NCBI RefSeq assembly: GCF_004345825.1
Contig: NZ_SLXM01000003.1
Span: 1 to 64,000, forward strand
DNA from: Tenacibaculum skagerrakense
GTDB taxonomy: Bacteria; Bacteroidota; Bacteroidia; Flavobacteriales; Flavobacteriaceae
Length of the DNA stretch: 64,000 bases
Direction of reading: 5' to 3'
How positions within the stretch are numbered: the first letter of the stretch is position 1; each line of letters opens with the position of its first letter. Below the pieces are notes generated by a model. The model did no database searches and had not been told where the DNA came from. It saw nothing but the letters and a program-made list of their open reading frames with translations. A program made the position numbers and the translations under genes. Shown piece by piece: positions 5,051-63,153 of this stretch.

Positions 5051-6475
5051 ATGAATAAATCTGCTGAATTAGTTTGGTTAAACTGTTTGTCTTTTATAAA
5101 GGACAATATAAAACCTCAGGCATACAAGACATGGTTCGAACCAATAAAACCTGTTAAGTTGTCTGGAGAGGCATTAACTGTACAAGTTCCTAGTAAGTTT
5201 TTTTATGAATGGTTAGAAGAACATTATATTAAATTATTAAGAGTAGCTTTAATCAAAGAATTAGGAGAGCACGCTAAGTTAATTTATGATGTTCGAATGG
5301 AGAATACTTACAGTAGTAACAGTCCGCAAACTGTTAAAATTCCAAGTTCAAACAGAAATCCTTTAAAACCTCAAAAGGTAACAGTTCCTTTAGAATCTAA
5401 AAGGGAGTTAAAGAATCCTTTTATAATTCCTGGTTTACAAAAAGTTAAGATAGAATCTCAGTTAAATCCAAATTATAATTTTGATAATTTTGTTGAGGGA
5501 GATTCTAATAGATTAGCACGTTCTGCTGGAATAGCCGTAGCAAATAAACCTGGAGGAACATCTTTTAATCCATTACTTATATATGGAGGAGTAGGTTTAG
5601 GGAAAACTCATTTAGCACACGCTATTGGGGTTGATATTAAAGACAAATATCCTGATAAAACAGTTTTATACATTTCTTCTGAAAAGTTTACACAACAATT
5701 TATCGATTCTGTAAAATCAAATACAAGAAATGATTTCATTCATTTCTATCAGATGATTGACGTATTAATTATTGACGATGTTCAGTTTTTATCTGGTAAA
5801 GCAGGTACACAGGATGTATTCTTCCATATTTTTAACCATTTACATCAAAATGGAAAACAGGTTATTTTAACTTCAGATAAGGCGCCTGTTGATATGCAAG
5901 ATATTGAACAGAGATTATTATCTCGTTTCAAGTGGGGATTGTCTGCGGAGTTGCAAAATCCTGATTATGAGACTCGAGTTTCAATATTGCAACGTAAGTT
6001 GTTTAGAGATGGTGTTGAGATGCCAGAAGATATTGTAGAGTATATTGCGAAGAATGTAAAATCTAATGTAAGAGAACTTGAAGGTGTTATTATTTCAATG
6101 ATTGCTCAAGCATCATTTAATCGAAAGGAATTTACATTAGAATTAGCTAGACAGATAGTTGATAAATTTGTTAAGAATACGAAGAAAGAAGTTTCTATAG
6201 ACTATATACAAAAAGTAGTTTCTAAGTATTTTGATATGGATGTGGCAACATTACAATCAAAAACTCGAAAAAGACATGTTGTTCAAGCGCGCCAGTTAGC
6301 TATGTATTTTGCTAAACGAATGACTAAATCTTCATTAGCGAGCATTGGTAGTCAAATTGGACAAAGAGATCATGCAACTGTTCTTCATGCATGTAAAACT
6401 GTTGATAATTTAACTGAGACAGATAAGCAATTTAGAAAGTACGTAGACGATTTAACAAAGAAATTAACATTCTAA
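5051..6475 (+). CDS. dnaA: Chromosomal replication initiator DnaA
   Basis: This AAA+ protein opens the replication origin and also acts as a transcription factor. It has 474 residues, the normal length. Domain I starts with ELVWLNCLSFIKDNI, a variable linker covers about 85-135, and the ATPase domain has Walker A GGVGLGKT (179-186) and the Walker B region VLIIDDVQFL. The C-terminal DNA-binding domain has the signature QRDHATVLHACKTV. The gene heads a plus-strand run with a phosphatase and a methyltransferase, the order I expect in Flavobacteriaceae. A possible DnaA box lies in the upstream gap. Confidence 0.99.
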   Translation: MNKSAELVWLNCLSFIKDNIKPQAYKTWFEPIKPVKLSGEALTVQVPSKFFYEWLEEHYIKLLRVALIKELGEHAKLIYDVRMENTYSSNSPQTVKIPSSNRNPLKPQKVTVPLESKRELKNPFIIPGLQKVKIESQLNPNYNFDNFVEGDSNRLARSAGIAVANKPGGTSFNPLLIYGGVGLGKTHLAHAIGVDIKDKYPDKTVLYISSEKFTQQFIDSVKSNTRNDFIHFYQMIDVLIIDDVQFLSGKAGTQDVFFHIFNHLHQNGKQVILTSDKAPVDMQDIEQRLLSRFKWGLSAELQNPDYETRVSILQRKLFRDGVEMPEDIVEYIAKNVKSNVRELEGVIISMIAQASFNRKEFTLELARQIVDKFVKNTKKEVSIDYIQKVVSKYFDMDVATLQSKTRKRHVVQARQLAMYFAKRMTKSSLASIGSQIGQRDHATVLHACKTVDNLTETDKQFRKYVDDLTKKLTF

Positions 6476-6488
6476 AATTTAATTTTAT

Positions 6489-6938
6489 ATGAGAATACTT
6501 ATGGTTTGCTTGGGGAATATTTGTCGTTCGCCATTAGCTGAAGGTATTCTAAGATCAAAAATTATTTCTGATACTGTTATCGTAGATTCTGCAGGTACTT
6601 CAGGATTTCATCAAGGAGAGTTACCGGATCCAAGGTCAATAGCTGTAGCTAGATTGAATGGGATTGATATTACGAATCAACGTTCACGAAAGTTTTTAGT
6701 AGAAGATTTTGATAACTTTGATTTAATTTATGCTATGGATCAAAGTAATTATCGTAATATTTTAGACTTAGCTAGAAACAGTGAAGAGGAATCTAAAGTG
6801 AGAATGATTTTAAACGAATCACATCCTAATCAAAATTTAAATGTACCTGATCCTTATTATGGAGGAGATAAAGGTTTCGATAATGTATTTAGGATGTTAG
6901 ATGAAGCATGTGAAATTATTGCTTCTCAAATACAATAA
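6489..6938 (+). CDS. Low molecular weight protein-tyrosine phosphatase
   Basis: This small cytoplasmic phosphatase (149 residues) hydrolyses phosphotyrosine by a cysteine phospho-intermediate. The CX5R loop is at the N terminus (C7 and R13 in VCLGNICRS). The general acid aspartate is in the NVPDPYYGG segment near residue 121, at the usual distance. It starts 13 bp after dnaA and ends 7 bp before the methyltransferase, so the three genes are probably co-transcribed. Its substrate is unknown; no tyrosine kinase or capsule gene lies nearby. Confidence 0.95.
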   Translation: MRILMVCLGNICRSPLAEGILRSKIISDTVIVDSAGTSGFHQGELPDPRSIAVARLNGIDITNQRSRKFLVEDFDNFDLIYAMDQSNYRNILDLARNSEEESKVRMILNESHPNQNLNVPDPYYGGDKGFDNVFRMLDEACEIIASQIQ

Positions 6939-6945
6939 GTAGCTT

Positions 6946-7650
6946 ATGTTAGGTAAACTTTATTTAATTCCAACAACTTTAGGAGATACAGAACCATTGG
7001 AAGTAATGCCTATTTCTGTTAAAAAAGTAATTGAATCGCTCGATTATTTTATTGTTGAGAACGAAAAAACAGCAAGAAGGTATATTAAGAGAATTACACC
7101 TAGCAAAGTGCAGTCTGAGCTACATTTCATGAAGATTGATAAGTTTTCACACGAACTAGAAACAAGAAATTATTTAGATGTTTGTCAGCATGGGATTTCG
7201 GTAGGAGTTTTATCTGAAGCGGGAGTTCCGGGTGTAGCTGATCCAGGAGCAACGATAGTAAAACAAGCACATGAAAAAGGAATACAAGTAATTCCTTTAG
7301 TTGGTCCGTCTTCTATTTTATTAGCAATGATGGCTTCGGGAATGAATGGTCAAAATTTTGCTTTTAATGGGTATTTACCTATTGATAAATCTGATAAGAA
7401 GAAAGTTTTAAAGGAGTTAGAAAAAGTTTCAAGAGATAAAAAACAGTCACAAATTTTTATTGAAACTCCTTACAGAAACGGTAAAATGTTAGATGATTTA
7501 CGAACTACTTTACAACCAAATACTAGACTTTGTGTGGCTTGTGATATTACTTTGCCAACAGAATACATTAAAACACTTCCTGTTTCTAAATGGAAATCTG
7601 AAAACCCTGATTTACACAAAAGGCCTGCAATTTTTATTATACAGGCCTAA
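6946..7650 (+). CDS. SAM-dependent methyltransferase, RsmI-like (tetrapyrrole methylase fold)
   Basis: This 234-residue protein has the tetrapyrrole/corrin methylase fold shared by RsmI, which 2'-O-methylates C1402 of 16S rRNA. Family stretches are KLYLIPTTLGDTEP at the N terminus, SEAGVPGVADPG in the SAM-binding loop and PLVGPSSILLAMMASG. The motifs deviate somewhat from classical RsmI (GVPGVADPG where RsmI has GTPLISDPG), so it may be the shorter paralogue common in Bacteroidota rather than RsmI itself. The target is therefore uncertain. It follows the phosphatase by 7 bp. Confidence 0.85.
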   Translation: MLGKLYLIPTTLGDTEPLEVMPISVKKVIESLDYFIVENEKTARRYIKRITPSKVQSELHFMKIDKFSHELETRNYLDVCQHGISVGVLSEAGVPGVADPGATIVKQAHEKGIQVIPLVGPSSILLAMMASGMNGQNFAFNGYLPIDKSDKKKVLKELEKVSRDKKQSQIFIETPYRNGKMLDDLRTTLQPNTRLCVACDITLPTEYIKTLPVSKWKSENPDLHKRPAIFIIQA

Positions 7651-7683
7651 TTAAAAATCTATAATGTAATAAGTAATTGTTTT

Positions 7684-8259
7684 TTATACGGTAGCTTTTT
7701 TGTCTGCTTTGATGTGAGAAACATCGTATCCTGCAAATTTCTTTAAATACGATTCTATTGACGTTCCATATGAATCTCTAAATTGAAACTTACCATAAGA
7801 ACGTAAAAACTTTTTTACGTTTCCAGCACCTGCTAAATGAGCTGCTGCTAAAATTCCAGATTCAGTTATAACGATACCTTTTATGCGTTTTCCTACAAAA
7901 CGGGAAATATCCCTTCTTAAAATCCATTTATTCACCTTACAAAGTGCAGTGAAAGCCCTCTCTTGTAGTTCAGGGTTTTTCAGGAATTTTTGAGTATCAT
8001 AAATTTTAAAACGACGTAATGTGCTTTTACCAAATTGGTATTTCCCAAGATATCCGAGAGTATTTACAACTCTATATTTACCTTGTGATTCTTTAAAAGC
8101 TAAAGCTTCTTTAAATCCTATGAAGTCTTTTTCTAGGATTAATAGGTCCTCGGTTGTAGTGTAGTTTATTGGCTTAGTTTTCTCTGATAATTTCCCCTTC
8201 TTATCTGTAAAACTAAATAGTGTAATAAAAATTAAAATTGCCCCTAATTTTCTGATAAT
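7684..8259 (-). CDS. Lysozyme/transglycosylase-like exported protein with non-standard start
   Basis: The open frame runs from a TAA at 8275-8277 to the stop at 7684 and encodes about 191 residues. It opens with a basic/hydrophobic signal-like stretch (IRKLGAILIFITLFSF). A lysozyme-like core follows: KESQGKY, with a likely catalytic Glu near residue 57, then GYLGKYQFG, then SGILAAAHLAGAG, ending near FAGYDVSH. No ATG, GTG or TTG occurs before a GTG at 7933-7935, which would leave only 83 residues and remove the signal peptide and the catalytic part. ATA (8265), ATT (8259) and ATC (8256) are the only plausible starts just after a good promoter. I chose ATT, read as Met-Ile-Arg-Lys. A recent ATG mutation or base error is the alternative. 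Confidence 0.6.
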   Translation of the reverse strand: MIRKLGAILIFITLFSFTDKKGKLSEKTKPINYTTTEDLLILEKDFIGFKEALAFKESQGKYRVVNTLGYLGKYQFGKSTLRRFKIYDTQKFLKNPELQERAFTALCKVNKWILRRDISRFVGKRIKGIVITESGILAAAHLAGAGNVKKFLRSYGKFQFRDSYGTSIESYLKKFAGYDVSHIKADKKATV

Positions 8260-8284
8260 TAATATACTTTCTGTTTAGCGGGCG

Positions 8285-8317
8285 CAAATATATGACAAAA
8301 ATACAGTTCAAAACAAA
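8285..8317 (-). promoter_or_regulatory. Bacteroidota-type promoter for the lysozyme-like gene
   Basis: On the minus strand TATATTTG (8292 to 8285) matches the TAnnTTTG -7 box exactly, and TTTG (8317 to 8314) lies 21 bp upstream as the -33 box. The predicted start of transcription is only 15-25 nt before the first codons of the lysozyme-like gene, which supports reading that gene from its signal peptide. Confidence 0.65.
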
Positions 8318-8461
8318 CTTTGAGATTTTGTATATTATAAGGTTTTATCAAAAATGTACTTTTATTAGCTAATTTTTGATAATATATTAATAGTTAAACT
8401 TGTATGATTGTTAAATTTCCTAAAAAGCTGTTAATCAGTTGTAAATAATTTTTTGTTAAAA

Positions 8462-9493
8462 TTATCGCTTAATTCCTTGATTATTAATCCATCGTTGATA
8501 TTTTGCTGCATTTCTGTTGTGCTGAGATAGTGTTTTCGCAAATTCATGAAAGCCAATATTATCTACACTTGCACACATAAAATAATAGTCGTGTTTTTCT
8601 GGATTTAAAACAGCTTCAATAGAAGAAATATCAGGCATTGAAATTGGAGAAGGGGGTAGGCCTACATTTTTGTATGTATTGTATGGTGATTTTTTGGTGT
8701 TTTCAATATCCCTGAACAAAACTCTTTTCACTATAAAATCTTGCCCATTAATTTCTCTTAAAGCGTAAATAATAGTTGGATCTGCTTCTAGAGGCCATTT
8801 GTTTTTATATCTATTTAAGTACAGACCAGCTACTTTAGGTCGTTCAGATGTCTGAGCAGTTTCTTTTTGAACAATAGATGCTAAGGTTATAACTTGTTCT
8901 TTACTTAAGCCCAATTTATTTGCTTTTTCTAACCTGTTTTTATTCCAAAATTTATTGTATTGATCAAGCATTTTATCTCTGAATCTCTCAGGTGAAGTAT
9001 TCCAATAAACTTCATACTGATTAGGTATAAACATTCCTAATACAGATTTTTCGGTAAAATTATTCTTGTTTAAAAAAGCAGTATCTTTAAATGCGGTTAC
9101 TAATGATACACTATCTGCTTCAATTTGTTGTGCAATTCTACCTGCTAATTTCTCTAATGTATCTTGATTATTAAAAGTAACTTTAACAGCTGTTTGATTT
9201 CCTGAGCGAAATAAATTTACTAAATCATTAAGACTCATTCCTTTTTTTAATACATACATTCCTGCTTTAGGGTTAGAAAATTTTTTCTTTTCTGATACCC
9301 AATTAAAATCATCTTTATTCTCAATAACTCCATTCAACGAATTCTGTAAGTCTTTCATTGAACTATTTGTTTTGATAAAGATTGTAGTGTCCTTTTTTAC
9401 AGCAGGAGCAAATATTTTGTTATAAAAATAATATCCTACAGCACTAGAGATAATGAGTAAAACACTAATTATAATAATGATCTTATTTTTCAT
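8462..9493 (-). CDS. mltG: Endolytic murein transglycosylase MltG
   Basis: MltG cleaves nascent peptidoglycan strands in the inner membrane and so sets glycan chain length. The 343 residues start with one membrane anchor (IIIIISVLLIISSAVGYYFY), then a LysM-like/YceG region. The catalytic part contains LASIVQKETAQTSERPKVAGLYLNR split over two segments, with the conserved Glu in VQKE, followed by LEADPTIIYAL and the NTYKNVGLPPSPI segment. All are hallmarks of the YceG family. Its first 11 bp overlap the end of the upstream GNAT gene, so it belongs to the dapF-GNAT-mltG operon, a cell-wall related set. Confidence 0.96.
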   Translation of the reverse strand: MKNKIIIIISVLLIISSAVGYYFYNKIFAPAVKKDTTIFIKTNSSMKDLQNSLNGVIENKDDFNWVSEKKKFSNPKAGMYVLKKGMSLNDLVNLFRSGNQTAVKVTFNNQDTLEKLAGRIAQQIEADSVSLVTAFKDTAFLNKNNFTEKSVLGMFIPNQYEVYWNTSPERFRDKMLDQYNKFWNKNRLEKANKLGLSKEQVITLASIVQKETAQTSERPKVAGLYLNRYKNKWPLEADPTIIYALREINGQDFIVKRVLFRDIENTKKSPYNTYKNVGLPPSPISMPDISSIEAVLNPEKHDYYFMCASVDNIGFHEFAKTLSQHNRNAAKYQRWINNQGIKR

Positions 9494-57020: not shown

Positions 57021-57062
57021 AAAAAATTACAATTCATCATTAAAAAATTACAATTCAGTATT
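57021..57062 (+). promoter_or_regulatory. Tandem 21-bp repeats, candidate LytTR operator A
   Basis: Two 21-bp units, 57021-57041 and 57042-57062, share aaaaaattacaattca and differ only near the end. The repeated TACAATTCA cores begin at 57028 and 57049, exactly two helix turns apart. LytTR regulators bind two short direct repeats with this spacing. A LytTR regulator is encoded at the end of the operon that starts at 57130. Confidence 0.55.
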
Positions 57063-57129: not shown

Positions 57130-57546
57130 ATGAAAGTTTTAATCACTTTATTAATCGCACTAACAACAACTACCTTTAGTTTGTTTTCTCAAAATGCACA
57201 AACTATTACGGTAACTATTTCTAATGTTTCATCTAATGAAGGAACTGTAAAGTTTGGGTTGCATAACAAAGAAACGTTTATGAAGATGAATCCTCTTCAA
57301 GTAGCTGAAAGTACCATAGAAAACGGAAAATGTAAAATTGTATTTAAAAATGTTCCCGCTGGAGAATATGCAATTACATGTTTTCATGATAAAAACAACA
57401 ACGGTAAAATGGATTTTCAATCAAACGGTATGCCTTTAGAAGCTTATGGAGCATCTAACAATGTGATGAATTTTGGTCCTCCACAATACGACGATGCAAA
57501 ATTTACCATTACCGATAAAGATGTATCTTTAGATATTAAATTATAA
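57130..57546 (+). CDS. DUF2141 exported protein
   Basis: This 138-residue protein has a signal peptide (VLITLLIALTTTTFSLFSQ) and one beta-sandwich-like DUF2141 domain. Typical pieces are VSSNEGTVKFGLHNKETF, FKNVPAGEYAITCFHDKNNN (a D-x-N-x-N calcium-like loop continuing GKMD) and the GMPLEAYGASNN region. Its role is unknown. It is the first gene of the operon and is followed 20 bp later by a 2TM-fused kinase, so it may be a periplasmic partner or a regulated output of the signalling system. Confidence 0.88.
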   Translation: MKVLITLLIALTTTTFSLFSQNAQTITVTISNVSSNEGTVKFGLHNKETFMKMNPLQVAESTIENGKCKIVFKNVPAGEYAITCFHDKNNNGKMDFQSNGMPLEAYGASNNVMNFGPPQYDDAKFTITDKDVSLDIKL

Positions 57547-57566: not shown

Positions 57567-58916
57567 ATGAGTATTGCAAACTATTGGAAAACTGAATTAA
57601 AAAACGACATTATTGTCTGTGTAAAAATGACTGTATTTTTCGGAGTTTTATTTACATTAATCAACAGACAATTCACTATTAGAGGAGCAAGTATTGTCTT
57701 TATGTTTTCAGCTTTATACTCATTTATTCTTGGATTAGGAAATGGCATTATTAATGAATTTTTAAATGATAAATGGGATTGGGTTAGAGAAACAAATAGC
57801 AGAGTTTGGGCAGGGATAATAGCAACTGTAATTTATACAACTGTTGGAGTTTTTGTAATTCACTACATACAATATGTTCTTGTACTTGATAACGAGTTTA
57901 GTGTTTTGTTTATTGAAAGAATGCTTTATGTACACTTATTTGCTATTGTTCTTTCGTTAGGAGTTGCTGCATTTTTTCATGCAAAAGGTTTTATGATTGA
58001 GTGGAAGAAAACCATGAATCAAGAAACTACACAACAGCAAATTGTTGCGAAAACTGAAACGGCTAAATTCGAAACTTTAAAAAGTCAAATAGATCCACAT
58101 TTTTTATTCAATAGCTTAAATGTGTTAACTTCTTTGATAGGAGAAAATCCAATTCAAGCAGAAAAATTTACCACTAAGCTATCTAAAGTATATCGATATG
58201 TTTTAGAGCAGAGAAATAAAGAATTGATTCCTATTTCCGAAGAGTTACAGTTTGCAAAAACATATATGGAACTGCTACAAATGCGTTTTGAAGATGCATT
58301 GGAGTTTGAATTACCAACTGCAGTTAGTAATAATGACTTAAAAATAGTTCCGTTGTCTTTACAATTACTATTAGAAAATGCAGTAAAGCATAACGTAGTT
58401 TCAAGTTCTAAACCATTAAGAATATCAATTTTTGAAGAAGATGGTTATTTAAAAATTCAAAATACTATAAATCCGAAAGAAGCGATAGGAAAAAAGAGCA
58501 CAAAAGTAGGATTACAGAATATTGCAGATAGATATGGATTGATATCAGATGAAGAAGTTCATATTGAAAATAATAACAAAACATTTACAGTGAGTTTACC
58601 ACTGTTACTTAAAACGAATAACACCATGAAAATTATAGATGACTTTGAAAATAGTAGATATATAAAAGCAGTTGAAAAGGTTGAAAGAATGAAAGAGTTT
58701 TATCAAAACTTAATAACCTATATCATTTTTATACCAATATTCATATTCATTAACTTACGCTTTTCTCCACAATTTCACTGGTTTTACTTTCCAATTATCG
58801 GATGGGGAATAGGAGTATTATTTCACGGATTAGAAGCCTATAACTACAGTTTGTTTTTAGGAAAAGATTGGGAAGAAAGAAAGATCAGAGAGTTAATGGA
58901 TAACGATAAGTTTTAG
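57567..58916 (+). CDS. LytS-type histidine kinase with C-terminal 2TM domain
   Basis: The 449-residue membrane sensor kinase has four or five N-terminal helices over about 15-140, then a His_kinase domain with phospho-acceptor H178 (QIDPHFLFNSLN), an N box LLLENAVKHN, and VGLQNIADRYG. The kinase proper ends at VSLPLLLK near 349. A 2TM domain follows (354-449), with KVERMKEFYQNL, two helices, IIGWGIG and LGKDWEERKIRELM. The linker includes an in-frame ATG (58626) exactly where a separate 2TM gene would begin, as if a gene fusion had occurred. It presumably phosphorylates the LytTR regulator at 60172. Confidence 0.93.
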   Translation: MSIANYWKTELKNDIIVCVKMTVFFGVLFTLINRQFTIRGASIVFMFSALYSFILGLGNGIINEFLNDKWDWVRETNSRVWAGIIATVIYTTVGVFVIHYIQYVLVLDNEFSVLFIERMLYVHLFAIVLSLGVAAFFHAKGFMIEWKKTMNQETTQQQIVAKTETAKFETLKSQIDPHFLFNSLNVLTSLIGENPIQAEKFTTKLSKVYRYVLEQRNKELIPISEELQFAKTYMELLQMRFEDALEFELPTAVSNNDLKIVPLSLQLLLENAVKHNVVSSSKPLRISIFEEDGYLKIQNTINPKEAIGKKSTKVGLQNIADRYGLISDEEVHIENNNKTFTVSLPLLLKTNNTMKIIDDFENSRYIKAVEKVERMKEFYQNLITYIIFIPIFIFINLRFSPQFHWFYFPIIGWGIGVLFHGLEAYNYSLFLGKDWEERKIRELMDNDKF

Positions 58917-58920
58917 TGTT

Positions 58921-59217
58921 ATGAAAACCGATGAAGAAAAATTAAGATTTATAAAAGCTCAAAAACGAGTTCAACAAATCAAAGAGTTTTATAGCCATTT
59001 ACTAGTATACATGATTATTATACCAATACTAATTGTAATAAATTTAAAATATACACCAAATTATCACTGGTTTTGGTTTTCAATGATTGGATGGGGAGTT
59101 GGCCTAGCATTACATGCATTACAAATCTTCGAAGGTTATAAAATCTTTTTAGGACAAGATTGGGAAGAGAATAAAATTAAAGAATTAATGAAACAAGATT
59201 ATAAAAATGGAAAATAA
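58921..59217 (+). CDS. Stand-alone 2TM-domain protein, copy 1
   Basis: This 98-residue protein consists only of the 2TM domain: a basic N-terminal helix AQKRVQQIKEFYSHL, two hydrophobic helices separated by a short loop (TPNYHWFWF), GWGVGLALHALQIF, and the acidic/basic end GQDWEENKIKELM. It is closest in form to the kinase tail and to copy 2. It begins 4 bp after the kinase. Such domains could compete with or bind the kinase tail in the membrane; this is inference. Confidence 0.88.
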   Translation: MKTDEEKLRFIKAQKRVQQIKEFYSHLLVYMIIIPILIVINLKYTPNYHWFWFSMIGWGVGLALHALQIFEGYKIFLGQDWEENKIKELMKQDYKNGK

Positions 59218-59488
59218 ATATATAGAAGAACAGAAATATTTAAAAGCTAAAAAGAAAGTAAAAGAAATTAAAGGGTTTTATATTCACTTGACACTTTTTC
59301 TTTTAAATACACCGATAATTATTGCAGTTAATTTACTTACATCACCACAGTTTCAATGGTTTTGGTTTTCTGTTTTAGGTTGGGGAGCAGCCGTAGGAAT
59401 TCATGCGTTTTTAGCATTTAATGAAAATCTTTTAGGAAAAGACTGGGAAGAAAAGAAGATTCGAGAATTAATGAATAAAAACAATTAA
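59207..59488 (+). CDS. Stand-alone 2TM-domain protein, copy 2
   Basis: A 93-residue 2TM protein with KAKKKVKEIKGFYIHL, two helices, SPQFQWFWFSVLGWGAAVGIH (partly quoted) and GKDWEEKKIRELM. Its start lies within the last 11 bases of copy 1, so translation is coupled. It has the short inter-helix loop shared with copy 1 and the kinase tail. Function unknown. Confidence 0.87.
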   Translation: MENKYIEEQKYLKAKKKVKEIKGFYIHLTLFLLNTPIIIAVNLLTSPQFQWFWFSVLGWGAAVGIHAFLAFNENLLGKDWEEKKIRELMNKNN

Positions 59489-59490
59489 TT

Positions 59491-59832
59491 ATGGAACGTA
59501 ATTATATAGAAGAACAACGCTATTTAAAAGCGAAAAAAAGAGTAAAAGATATAAAAGGTTTTTATGGCCATTTTATAGCGTACGTTGGAGTAAATATCTT
59601 TTTAACAGCTATAATTGTTTTTGGAATGATGAATGATGGAAAAAGTTTTACAGATTCTATTACACATTTCGGGGCATACTCAACTTGGTTGTTTTGGGGT
59701 ATTGGAGTTTTTTTTCATTGGTTGGGAGTTTTCGGCTTTGGAAATGTAATATCTAAAGACTGGGAAGAACGTAAGATTAGAGAGCTAATGGAAAAAGAAC
59801 AGAATAAGGATAAAAGATTATTAAATAAATAG
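59491..59832 (+). CDS. Stand-alone 2TM-domain protein, copy 3
   Basis: A 113-residue 2TM protein. The N terminus, NYIEEQRYLKAKKRVKDIKG, is nearly the same as in copy 2, but the loop between the helices is about ten residues longer (MMNDGKSFTDSITHFGAYS) and the second helix begins TWLFWGIGVFFHWLG. The end is SKDWEERKIRELM plus a basic tail. It represents a second subtype together with copy 4. It starts 2 bp after copy 2. Confidence 0.87.
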   Translation: MERNYIEEQRYLKAKKRVKDIKGFYGHFIAYVGVNIFLTAIIVFGMMNDGKSFTDSITHFGAYSTWLFWGIGVFFHWLGVFGFGNVISKDWEERKIRELMEKEQNKDKRLLNK

Positions 59833-59839
59833 TAGTGAT

Positions 59840-60160
59840 ATGTTTTTAGAAAATAACAAAGATGAAGCTAATTATTTAATAGCTAAAAAGAGAGTTGAAG
59901 ATTTAAAAAAGTTTTATAAACACCTTGCAGTGTACATTATTATCAACGTTTTCATATCTGTTATGAAAATCCGTAGAAATATTAATAATGGAGAAACTTT
60001 CGAAGAAGCTTTATTTGATTTTGATACATTTGCGGTTTGGATTTTTTGGGGAATTGCAATCGCTATTCAAGCATTTAAACTATTTGGATTAAACTTTCTT
60101 TTCGGTAGAGATTGGGAGCAGAGAACTATCCAAAAGCACATGCGTAATAATAGATATTAA
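59840..60160 (+). CDS. Stand-alone 2TM-domain protein, copy 4
   Basis: A 106-residue 2TM protein with AKKRVEDLKKFYKHLAVYI, a long loop (RRNINNGETFEEALFDFD), a second helix with VWIFWGIAIAIQAFKLFG, and a diverged end GRDWEQRTIQKHM. It is the most divergent copy and lies 11 bp before the regulator gene. The GWG motif of copies 1-2 is replaced by FWGI. Function unknown. Confidence 0.86.
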   Translation: MFLENNKDEANYLIAKKRVEDLKKFYKHLAVYIIINVFISVMKIRRNINNGETFEEALFDFDTFAVWIFWGIAIAIQAFKLFGLNFLFGRDWEQRTIQKHMRNNRY

Positions 60161-60171
60161 AAATTAATATA

Positions 60172-60927
60172 ATGAACGTACTTATCATAGAAGATGAAAA
60201 GCCAGCAGCAAGAAGATTAAATAGAATGCTTAATGAGTTGGGAATAGAGGTAAACACCATGTTACATTCTGTAGAGGAAGCTTTAAATTGGTTTCAAGAG
60301 AACGCGCATCCTGATTTAATTTTCTTAGATATTCAATTGTCTGATGGTTTATCATTTGAAATTTTTGAAGAAATTCCGGTGAAGTCAGCAATTATTTTCA
60401 CAACAGCTTATGATGAGTATGCTTTAAAAGCGTTTAAATTAAATTCTATTGATTATTTATTAAAGCCAATTGATGATGACGAGTTAAAAGTGGCTGTAAA
60501 TAAATATAAAGAGCAACAACCAGCTGAAAGTAGTTTGCAGGTGAATATTGATGAAATACGTAAACTATTAATAAATCCAATTGATCGTAAGTATAAGAAG
60601 CGATTTACTATTAAAATTGGACAGCATATTAAGATTATTCATACAGATAATATTGAGTGTTTGTATTCCGAAAATAAAGCGACATACATTCATACCAGTG
60701 AAAATAGAAACTATTTAATAGACTACTCATTAGAACATTGGCATGATCAACTAAATCCAGAGTCTTTTTTTAGAGTTAATAGAACATATATAGTGCATGT
60801 TAATGCCATAAAAGATATTGTAGCTTACAGTAATTCTAGATTAAAGTTAGTACTTCACTCTTATGACGAGCAAGAAATTATTGTAAGTAGAGAGCGTGTA
60901 AAAGATTTTAAAAATTGGATTGGTTAA
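60172..60927 (+). CDS. LytTR response regulator (LytR/AlgR type), copy 1
   Basis: This 251-residue regulator has a receiver domain (acidic pocket IIEDEKPAARR, phospho-acceptor D53 in FLDIQLSDG, conserved lysine in YLLKPID) and a C-terminal LytTR DNA-binding domain from about 145 (IKIGQHIKIIHTDNIECLYS, RVNRTYIVH). It closes the operon that starts with the DUF2141 gene and is the likely partner of the 2TM-fused kinase. The last 86 coding bases before the end are identical to those of the second regulator. Confidence 0.95.
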   Translation: MNVLIIEDEKPAARRLNRMLNELGIEVNTMLHSVEEALNWFQENAHPDLIFLDIQLSDGLSFEIFEEIPVKSAIIFTTAYDEYALKAFKLNSIDYLLKPIDDDELKVAVNKYKEQQPAESSLQVNIDEIRKLLINPIDRKYKKRFTIKIGQHIKIIHTDNIECLYSENKATYIHTSENRNYLIDYSLEHWHDQLNPESFFRVNRTYIVHVNAIKDIVAYSNSRLKLVLHSYDEQEIIVSRERVKDFKNWIG

Positions 60928-60956
60928 CAGTTTACTAGTAAAAAACAACAGTTCAC
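60926..60956 (+). promoter_or_regulatory. Direct repeats AACAGTTyAC, candidate LytTR operator B
   Basis: AACAGTTTAC (60926-60935) and AACAGTTCAC (60947-60956) are direct repeats exactly 21 bp apart. They closely resemble known LytTR half-sites of the ACAGTTAAG type with 12-bp spacing. They lie between the first regulator, overlapping its stop codon, and the second kinase gene at 61011. Confidence 0.65.
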
Positions 60957-61010
60957 TTAATTAAGTTTTAAGGAGTTTAAATTATACTTCATTTTAGTAG
61001 TAAAAAAAGT

Positions 61011-62411
61011 ATGTATAAATTTGTTTCACCGTTAAAAAAGTCAATATTAATTGTTTTTTCTCTTCACTTATTAGCTTTCATCCTTCTATTTTTCACTGCT
61101 AAAATTTCACAGCCAGATATTTTTAGAGTTATTCCAATTACATTATCAATATCTCTTATAGTAATTTTTTTTTCTATTTTATTTTTCGAAAATAGTCAAA
61201 ACAAACGAAGAGGTTTTTTGTTAATGTCGGTTACAATTTTTGTTCTGTGTTTATTTGTAACAAACTTTATTGATAAAAACTATTTAGTTCTTTTACATAT
61301 AAAAGGCTTTATAATAGGTCTTTTAGGGGTTGCTTTTGGAGCTTTGTCTTTTTTGATTCAAGTTTTAATTGCAAAAGATAAATCTGTCTCAGATAATAAA
61401 AAAGGTCTAGTTAAGTATTCGTTAAAGCAAATCATATTAATTCCTTTGTCGGGCGTAATTTTTTATTCCATTATCATTTATATAGGAAGTTCATATTCTT
61501 TTAATATACTAACAGTTTGGACAGAACTTTTTCCAATAGGTTTTTTAACTACATTTATTGCTTTTCATTTCTTAAATAAGATTTATAGTAAAGGGTTAGA
61601 AGTAAATCGCACCAGAAATATTTTCTTATTGTATTTAACTATTTTAACGCTTTTAGTCTCGTTTTTAATTTTTTCAAGTGAAGCTTTTTACCTTTTTAAA
61701 GGTAACATGGTTAGTAGAATTACGATGATTGCAATACCGATAATAATATTGCATTTACCTTATGTTATCTATGTCATTCTTCTAACACATTTTTATTATT
61801 TAAAAAAGTTAGATAATCAAGAAAAAGAAGAGTTGAAACAAAAGTCTTTAGCTTCAGAAATAAATTATTCTTTATTGAAAAAACAATTGAGTCCTCATTT
61901 TTTATTTAACAATATAAATGTTTTGACAGGTTTAATTGAGGAATCACCCTATAAAGCTATAGAGTTTTCACAAAGCTTATCAAATGTGTATAGGTATTTT
62001 TTAGATAATGAGAAAAATGATGTTATTAAATTAAAGGATGAAATAAAGTTTGCAGAAAGTTATTTAGAATTAATGAGAATGCGATTTGAAGATGGAGTTC
62101 AATTAAAACTAGATGTAAATGAGGAAGCATTGGAAAAATATATTTTAACTAATTCCCTCCAACAAGTATTGGAGAATATTTTTAAACATAATGAAGTATC
62201 CTATGAAGTGCCTATGGAAATAGAAATATGTTCAGAAAATAATTATTTACAAATTAAAAATAAAAAAAATAAAAGATATTCAGAGTTTATAAGAAGAGGA
62301 ATTGGGATAAATAATATAATGAAGAGGTATGCATTTATTTCTAACAGTGAAGTAGAGATTGAAGAGTCAGAAAATTTATATATAATTAGATTACCATTAC
62401 TTTCAGATTAA
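61011..62411 (+). CDS. LytS-type histidine kinase, second module
   Basis: This 466-residue membrane kinase has seven or eight N-terminal helices (about 10-260), a different sensor from the first kinase, and then a coiled stretch and the His_kinase domain with H296 (QLSPHFLFNNIN). The ATP region shows VLENIFKHN and GIGINNIMKRYAF. It ends cleanly at IIRLPLLSD with no 2TM domain. The next gene, a LytTR regulator, starts after 1 bp. The divergent sensor part implies a different signal from the first module. Confidence 0.92.
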   Translation: MYKFVSPLKKSILIVFSLHLLAFILLFFTAKISQPDIFRVIPITLSISLIVIFFSILFFENSQNKRRGFLLMSVTIFVLCLFVTNFIDKNYLVLLHIKGFIIGLLGVAFGALSFLIQVLIAKDKSVSDNKKGLVKYSLKQIILIPLSGVIFYSIIIYIGSSYSFNILTVWTELFPIGFLTTFIAFHFLNKIYSKGLEVNRTRNIFLLYLTILTLLVSFLIFSSEAFYLFKGNMVSRITMIAIPIIILHLPYVIYVILLTHFYYLKKLDNQEKEELKQKSLASEINYSLLKKQLSPHFLFNNINVLTGLIEESPYKAIEFSQSLSNVYRYFLDNEKNDVIKLKDEIKFAESYLELMRMRFEDGVQLKLDVNEEALEKYILTNSLQQVLENIFKHNEVSYEVPMEIEICSENNYLQIKNKKNKRYSEFIRRGIGINNIMKRYAFISNSEVEIEESENLYIIRLPLLSD

Positions 62412-62412
62412 A

Positions 62413-63153
62413 ATGACTGCATTAATAATAGAAGATGAGTTACCTTCGGCAAGAAGATTAGAACGTTTATTGATAAAAAACAATATTACAGTAGTCAAAT
62501 CATTGACTTCAATAAAAAGCTCTATTTCTTGGTTCAAAAATAATAATCATCCAAATTTAGTTTTTTTAGACATTCAATTATCTGATGGATTATGTTTTGA
62601 AATATTTAAAAAAATAGATATACATTCAAATATTATTTTCACTACTGCTTACAGCGATTATAGTATAAAGGCTTTTGATTTTAATAGTATTTCGTATTTG
62701 TTAAAACCAATTAATGATAATGACTTAATTAAAACACTTTTAAAAGCTAGTCAAATTTGTGAAAGGGAGGAAAACTATAATAATTTAATGAAAATACATT
62801 CAGAATTTACTTCTCATAAATTCAAGACAACTTATACAATAAAGTTTGGAAACAAAATTAAAATTATAAAAGATAGAGATATTCATTATTTTGAAAGTAA
62901 TGATAATTATACATATTTGAATTCTAATTCCAGTAAAGGAATAGTAAATTTTTCTCTTAGTAAACTTGAAGAAATTTTAAATCCATTTTATTTTTTTAGG
63001 GTTAATAGATCAATTATCATTAATAAAAATCAAATAAAACAGGTGGAAAAGTACAGTAACTCAAGATTAAAGTTAGTACTTCACTCTTATGACGAGCAAG
63101 AAATTATTGTAAGTAGAGAGCGTGTAAAAGATTTTAAAAATTGGATTGGCTAA
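62413..63153 (+). CDS. LytTR response regulator, copy 2
   Basis: This 246-residue regulator has a receiver (IIEDELPSARR; VFLDIQLSDGLCFEIF with the phospho-acceptor Asp; YLLKPIND) and a C-terminal LytTR domain (YTIKFGNKIKIIKDRDIHYF, RVNRSIIIN). Over most of its length it is clearly diverged from copy 1, but its last 31 codons are nearly the same and 86 bases are identical. It overlaps the convergent MFS gene by 4 bp. Confidence 0.95.
   Translation: MTALIIEDELPSARRLERLLIKNNITVVKSLTSIKSSISWFKNNNHPNLVFLDIQLSDGLCFEIFKKIDIHSNIIFTTAYSDYSIKAFDFNSISYLLKPINDNDLIKTLLKASQICEREENYNNLMKIHSEFTSHKFKTTYTIKFGNKIKIIKDRDIHYFESNDNYTYLNSNSSKGIVNFSLSKLEEILNPFYFFRVNRSIIINKNQIKQVEKYSNSRLKLVLHSYDEQEIIVSRERVKDFKNWIG

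Follow-up and report, generated by a model that had tools for sequence, protein, structure and literature searches.

A histidine kinase that carries a 2TM domain (Pfam PF13239) beyond its catalytic domain is encoded, in the Flavobacteriaceae, together with free homologues of that domain, and a functional coupling of the kinase tail with the other 2TM units is strongly supported by their strict co-occurrence, by tail-less orthologues of the kinase, by the order of the subtypes and by purifying selection. We propose that the kinase is part of an autoregulated LytTR two-component system and is built into a 2TM membrane assembly tuned by the free homologues, a reading that we hold with about as much belief as doubt. 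The locus at its origin lies in a 64,000-nucleotide stretch of Tenacibaculum skagerrakense DNA, here called the window, with the following features:

57028–57057, plus strand: LytTR-type box of two 9-bp direct repeats with a 12-bp spacer, before the DUF2141 gene (pattern search; profile across array loci)
57130–57546, plus strand: DUF2141 protein with an apparent signal peptide, by eye (PF09912, 109 bits)
57567–58916, plus strand: histidine kinase of 449 aa with four N-terminal helices, catalytic core and C-terminal 2TM tail (PF06580, 88 bits; alignment; predicted model)
58626–58628, plus strand: in-frame ATG (Met354) at the kinase/tail junction, candidate internal start (kinase alignment; upstream A context)
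58665–58901, plus strand: 2TM tail of the kinase, short-loop, residues 367–445 (PF13239, 92 bits; tree)
58921–59217, plus strand: copy 1, stand-alone 2TM, short-loop (PF13239, 94 bits)
59207–59488, plus strand: copy 2, stand-alone 2TM, short-loop, 11-nt overlap with copy 1 (PF13239, 88 bits)
59491–59832, plus strand: copy 3, stand-alone 2TM, long-loop (PF13239, 83 bits)
59840–60160, plus strand: copy 4, stand-alone 2TM, long-loop (PF13239, 73 bits)
60172–60927, plus strand: receiver-LytTR response regulator R1 (PF00072 and PF04397)
60927–60955, plus strand: second 9-12-9-type box, before a second kinase/regulator pair (pattern search)
61011–62411, plus strand: second histidine kinase, without 2TM tail (PF06580 only)
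62413–63153, plus strand: second receiver-LytTR regulator R2, its last 33 residues the same as in R1 (domain search; sequence comparison)

The 57567–60160 stretch opens with a histidine kinase gene of the PF06580 type, with the Pfam 2TM domain at its C-terminus, and continues with four stand-alone 2TM proteins of 93–113 aa. Its preliminary description as five homologous 2TM units in a row is borne out by PF13239 scores of 73–94 bits against a curated cut-off of 24.8 bits, the units being 27–50% identical in pairwise comparison. The range then given also takes in the body of the kinase, whereas the 2TM units occupy 58665–60142, and the motifs ascribed to the units need loosening: in the translations the K-x-x-K-x-I-K-x-F-Y helix, said to be in each unit, is exact only in copies 2 and 3, the HWFWF of the short-loop units is exact only in copy 1, and copy 4 ends in DWEQRTIQKHM instead of the DWEE-x-K-I-x-E-L-M end claimed for all five. 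Searched as a whole, the 3.7-Mb genome contains exactly five 2TM domains, and since all of them fall at this one locus, chance is excluded. From the kinase through copies 1–4 to R1 the intergenic gaps are 4, −11, 2, 7 and 11 nt, which makes one transcript, and hence co-transcription of all six genes, likely. The DUF2141 gene, 20 nt ahead of the kinase gene, is probably the first gene of the operon; such a gene lies just upstream of the array in 38 of the 40 other genus loci (these 38 having upstream DNA) and within about 1 kb upstream in 10 of 40 family loci, and a TPR-like gene was seen by eye before the tailed kinase in about 29 of 40. The regulator, the DNA boxes and the DUF2141 gene, all of which belong with the array, had been omitted from the preliminary description. 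Judged by its domains, with a PF06580 kinase and a receiver-LytTR regulator within one operon, the system would be of the LytS/LytR type. The phosphoacceptor histidine and the N and G boxes are present, H178, N271 and G315 being invariant among 66 kinases, and the named relatives of the kinase are mostly from Tenacibaculum, with identities of up to 90%.

Directly 3' of the array, a second, tail-less kinase and a LytTR regulator stand behind a box of their own (60927–63153). This pair was not found as such in locus L108, with which the window is compared below, and kinase/regulator pairs also follow the array in L009 and L033. The last 33 residues of R1 and R2 are fully identical (96 of 99 nt), and of the last 98 residues only 52 are shared; the common DNA-binding end would point to recent gene conversion or recombination, and because of it both regulators may read one and the same box.

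How closely tail and free copies travel together is seen best in the genome draws. Genomes with 2TM domains make up 50 of 58 in the genus, 130 of 149 in an even draw from the family and 57 of 247 in a draw from the phylum, where those with at least four matches all belong to the Flavobacteriaceae or to one sister family of the order, and one more distant genome has three. In the family draw, at least two domains are present in 116 genomes, one in 14 and none in 19. The 19 are mostly small (18 at 2.3 Mb or less), and the system may have been lost during genome reduction. A kinase orthologue at E <= 1e-75 was found in 117 of the 149 genomes, with 116 matches reaching into the tail, and these 116 genomes are exactly the 116 that have at least two 2TM domains, as against 0 of 33 others (the two surveys were matched by eye, for all genomes with a kinase match and all but 12 of those without one); the one genome in which the match stops before the tail, G185, has zero 2TM domains. 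The genus draw agrees, as all 50 genomes with a tailed kinase have at least three 2TM domains and none of the other eight has any, these being one with a tail-less orthologue (G018) and seven without a kinase orthologue. Both of the tail-less close orthologues found are in genomes without 2TM domains. In the tail-less loci kinase and regulator adjoin with a box upstream (338 and 251 aa in L152; 334 and 247 aa, with DUF2141, in L153), and the L152 kinase gives a weak 2TM match with an iterated profile and none with the Pfam model or a cleaner profile. That kinase and regulator can exist without any 2TM counts against the 2TM-assembly reading.

Since the threshold of at least two domains is a genome-wide count, 20 further tailed family loci were read, most of them in genomes with few 2TM domains. 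One or two free copies adjoin the kinase in 19 of these and none in the remaining one, L172, and a regulator was tagged in 19 of the 20. Adjacent free copies thereby stand at 103 of the 104 tailed loci read, the exception, L172, having a double tail and zero free copies, and a lone tail as the only 2TM unit occurs at 0 of 104. Loss of a whole operon removes tail and copies together, so that part of the co-occurrence is trivial, and the informative facts on coupling are the absence of lone tails and the two tail-less kinases. That tail and copies are kept or lost together suggests that they form one working membrane assembly. The preliminary idea that the small subunits could assemble with the sensor or titrate it, for a graded control, gains support in part, on the side of functional coupling. 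A locus from another family of the class, L093, has a single unfused 2TM gene followed by a tail-less kinase and a regulator, with a box, and is perhaps the older arrangement.

The same layout, with tailed kinase, free copies and regulator, is widespread among the sampled Flavobacteriaceae and also found in three sister-family genomes. In 84 array loci (the window, 40 from the genus, 40 from the family and 3 from the sister family), which were picked for a kinase-tail match and are therefore a more biased sample than the even draws, the gene order is tailed kinase, one to seven stand-alone 2TM units and regulator, usually of 251 aa; 81 of the 84 have a tagged regulator, the others being L038, which is cut by its contig end, L056 and L067. 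The preliminary view of an expansion in one operon was thus too narrow: the architecture is family-wide, and a DNA box goes with it as, in the genus, does a second operon that we predict to be a target.

The two subtypes proposed from the window, one comprising the tail and copies 1 and 2 and the other copies 3 and 4, separate as clades in a tree of 387 2TM domains from 101 loci, from which six weak matches in kinase N-termini and two short matches had been removed. The short-loop clade (171 members, support 0.92) contains all 85 kinase tails together with window copies 1 and 2, the long-loop clade (170 members, support 0.87) includes copies 3 and 4, and the remaining domains fall outside both. 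The distance from FY to WE is mostly 53–58 residues in stand-alone units of the short type versus mostly 62–71 in the long type. Along the array, the tail is of the short type in 84 of 84 loci; long-type copies occur in 80 loci and take the last place in 78, and 55 have a stand-alone copy of the short type. The partnership is nevertheless loose, given that the number of free copies per tailed locus runs from 0 (with a double tail) to 7 and that four of the 84 arrays have no member of the long clade. The most economical reading, we infer, is that tail and free copies make up a single assembly, in which a short-type tail usually has one or more long-type partners.

That 2TM units can stand side by side within one chain follows from natural fusions: six genus loci (L012, L025, L040, L041, L045 and L046) have two short-type units in a single ORF, and two family loci (L087 and L172) encode a double-tailed kinase. 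In an AlphaFold monomer of one fused pair (pLDDT 76, with a low pTM of 0.52), each unit shows an unbroken helix some 45 residues long, then a membrane helix of some 20 residues and, at its end, a helix of some 15. No solved relative of 2TM was found at a useful E-value by sequence, with copy 1 as query, or at E <= 0.001 by fold, with the fused pair as query. For the kinase, the monomer model (pLDDT 85, again with a low pTM, 0.50) has four N-terminal helices, a helical phosphoacceptor domain, the catalytic domain, a disordered linker at 353–360 and tail helices at 360–399, 407–424 and 433–448; among solved structures the GanS kinase domain matches it best. Among 82 kinases, with the truncated ones of L016 and L043 left out, the tail is better conserved than the N-terminal membrane part, with mean pairwise identities of 0.58 and 0.30, and the core has 0.69; in the 66 of them that were aligned for invariant residues the tail keeps A368, F378, Y379, N396, W405, G412, W413, G416 and W435. 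In the proposed reading the kinase would be tethered to the membrane at either end, N-terminally by its four helices and C-terminally by the short-loop 2TM tail, which follows a flexible linker of about 14 residues. Co-transcribed free 2TM proteins, some short-loop and others long-loop, the latter near-universal partners, would pack against the tail and one another, and this packing would set the reach of the catalytic domain to its own histidine or to the regulator; as a short linker joins the catalytic domain to the tail, tail packing should alter that reach.

The output side of the proposal concerns the box. The pattern ACARTTYA-N13-ACARTTYA matches the genome twice, at 57028–57057 and 60927–60955, with one match for the reversed control, and when two mismatches are allowed 13 times, versus 3 for the control. 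A box profile built without the tested locus, near relatives being kept in, reaches a score of at least 18 upstream of 68 of 82 array loci, versus 0 of 164 controls; L016 and L043, with less than 400 nt upstream, are left out of these counts. All 39 genus loci, window included, are among those with a box, and 14 of the 82 have none at this threshold. Relaxing the pattern adds two one-mismatch sites in the same genome, 2.3 kb apart, of which one precedes a gene for a TonB-dependent receptor and the other a DUF2141 gene followed by a TPR-like gene, and we predict this operon to be a second target of the regulator. The region (L145, positions 5365–8820, on contig 2 of genome G000) holds the receptor, DUF2141 and TPR-like genes with the two boxes. 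By eye, the combination of a receptor-like gene, a box and a TPR-like gene recurs in five further genomes of the genus, which were selected because they have boxes at this place; four of them have a DUF2141-like gene and two a DUF2306-like gene (one DUF2306 confirmed). This second predicted target makes uptake or outer-envelope homeostasis the likely biology of the system.

If the regulator binds the 9-12-9 box upstream of its own operon, as predicted, the amount of free 2TM protein would follow output, and the result would be a membrane feedback of adjustable gain. From the observed domains, gene order, conservation, selection, co-occurrence and conserved boxes we infer box binding, packing, the effect on the kinase, the signal and the sign of the feedback, for which analogy with MgrB and the LytTR Regulatory Systems slightly favours inhibition. 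The predicted control of the copies by their own regulator is also what one would expect if the free 2TM proteins were effectors, membrane-stabilising or transport-assisting and made on demand, with the unit on the kinase reading their state of assembly. That copy number varies between species like an output dose would fit such a role, and so would a further box, for the copies themselves, which 8 of 40 family loci have within or beside the gap between kinase and array; this box is in keeping with the main proposal too. We nevertheless consider the effector role unlikely, as it explains the strict link to the tail only if sensing needs the effector, and the free copies are very small, have no other domain and have no known activity or solved relative.

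Each window copy is under purifying selection: in a comparison of the window with L108, dN/dS comes to 0.016 for the tail, to 0.11, 0.007, 0.042 and 0.079 for copies 1–4 and to 0.013 for the regulator, values that come from one genome pair with dS near saturation for several genes. Single copies can decay, as one in G016 is broken by a stop. A recent, functionless local tandem duplication is ruled out by the family-wide array and by the selection on the window copies. A broader version of that idea, in which tail and copies are mere membrane anchors or assembly chaperones of the kinase, non-regulatory and multiplied by tandem duplication, has in its favour that short-type copies do multiply within the genus and that 2TM appears to serve as an anchor elsewhere, for example in L099 and L100. 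In these loci 2TM is fused, by eye, to an apparent dihydrofolate reductase, as a membrane-anchored form of the enzyme. The anchor reading is decidedly unlikely here, as in the model the kinase already has four N-terminal membrane helices and as the copies keep their subtype, their order and strong purifying selection.

A more particular form of the proposed assembly involves the junction between kinase and tail. Although the linker is variable, 62 of 82 kinases have a methionine at column 354 and 79 have one somewhere within the linker, the overall methionine frequency being 2.2%. The window ATG at 58626–58628 has an A at −3, −6, −12 and −13, the positions at which A was found to favour initiation in Flavobacterium johnsoniae (PMC6847099), and an A at −3 is found for 78% of the 79 linker ATGs, 74% of 237 stand-alone 2TM starts and 31% of 175 other methionine codons of the kinases, a signal that is weakened by the A-rich linker, by a common lysine at residue 349 (60 of 82) and by shared ancestry. 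The junction ATG may be a working internal start that releases the tail as a further free subunit, or else a relic of gene fusion. It is tempting to speculate that the kinase is a tethered membrane rheostat, its catalytic domain leashed by one subunit of a hetero-oligomer in which short and long paralogues stand beside it in lineage-specific numbers, with free tail also supplied from the internal ATG and gain set by counting subunits, and we offer this only tentatively, as a possibility well short of probable. No description of subunit counting as gain control of a histidine kinase was found in the passages searched of the open-access literature.

With this analysis 2TM, until now an anonymous domain, becomes a testable component of a two-component system of its own, which 116 of the 149 Flavobacteriaceae genomes sampled contain. 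It also brings to light a histidine kinase architecture in which a conserved membrane domain past the catalytic domain is strictly linked to its own paralogues. The output is made measurable by the predicted DNA site and by the operon predicted as a target, with its TonB receptor, DUF2141 and TPR genes. Should the free copies gate the kinase, the number of their genes would act as a natural gain control of the sensor, and species with 0 to 7 free copies, together with the natural tail-less variants, provide ready comparisons.

The domain, the kinase type and the regulator type were already known, and it is the arrangement of tail plus free copies that appears to be new; among the best-ranked matches in the open-access literature, no description of a unit of tailed kinase and free 2TM copies was found. 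Phage-shock-type systems were considered and set aside, as PMC11237479, in the passages seen, uses '2TM' generically and does not describe this unit. A coevolution study of F. johnsoniae reports parallel mutations in two genes whose locus tags are neighbours, one a LytTR gene and the other a histidine kinase gene (PMC10197871). The Pfam model PF13239 recognises all five window units far above its cut-off; it names the domain only, whereas here there are a kinase tail and free copies ordered by subtype. Compared with LytS/LytR-type systems, the kinase core, the phosphoacceptor region and the receiver-LytTR regulator are all standard, but the conserved membrane domain after the catalytic domain and the homologous free subunits between kinase and regulator are not.

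LytTR Regulatory Systems such as HdrRM and BrsRM, as far as they are described in the passages seen of PMC6193735, consist of a LytTR regulator and a membrane protein that inhibits it, with no kinase partner, and have 9-bp repeats with a 12-bp spacer. The present system resembles them in its co-encoded membrane protein, its LytTR regulator and the 9-12-9 box upstream of its own operon, but it has a kinase and a receiver domain in addition to their two proteins and is for that reason not classed with them. That the free 2TM proteins might act on the regulator by holding it at the membrane, as in those systems, is suggested by the shared box geometry and by the last copy, mostly long-type, usually lying directly 5' of the regulator, but it is most unlikely given that the homologous domain is fused to the kinase and not to the regulator, which has a receiver domain, and that no 2TM-LytTR fusion occurs among the loci read. 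A parallel to the mode of action proposed here is MgrB, a small membrane protein of 47 aa that acts on the kinase PhoQ through membrane helices (PMC10576120); for the 2TM copies, a genetic coupling to the kinase is what the data show. MgrB, however, is one protein and is not described in the text seen as homologous to PhoQ, whereas the kinase tail has up to seven co-inherited homologues of its own domain beside it.
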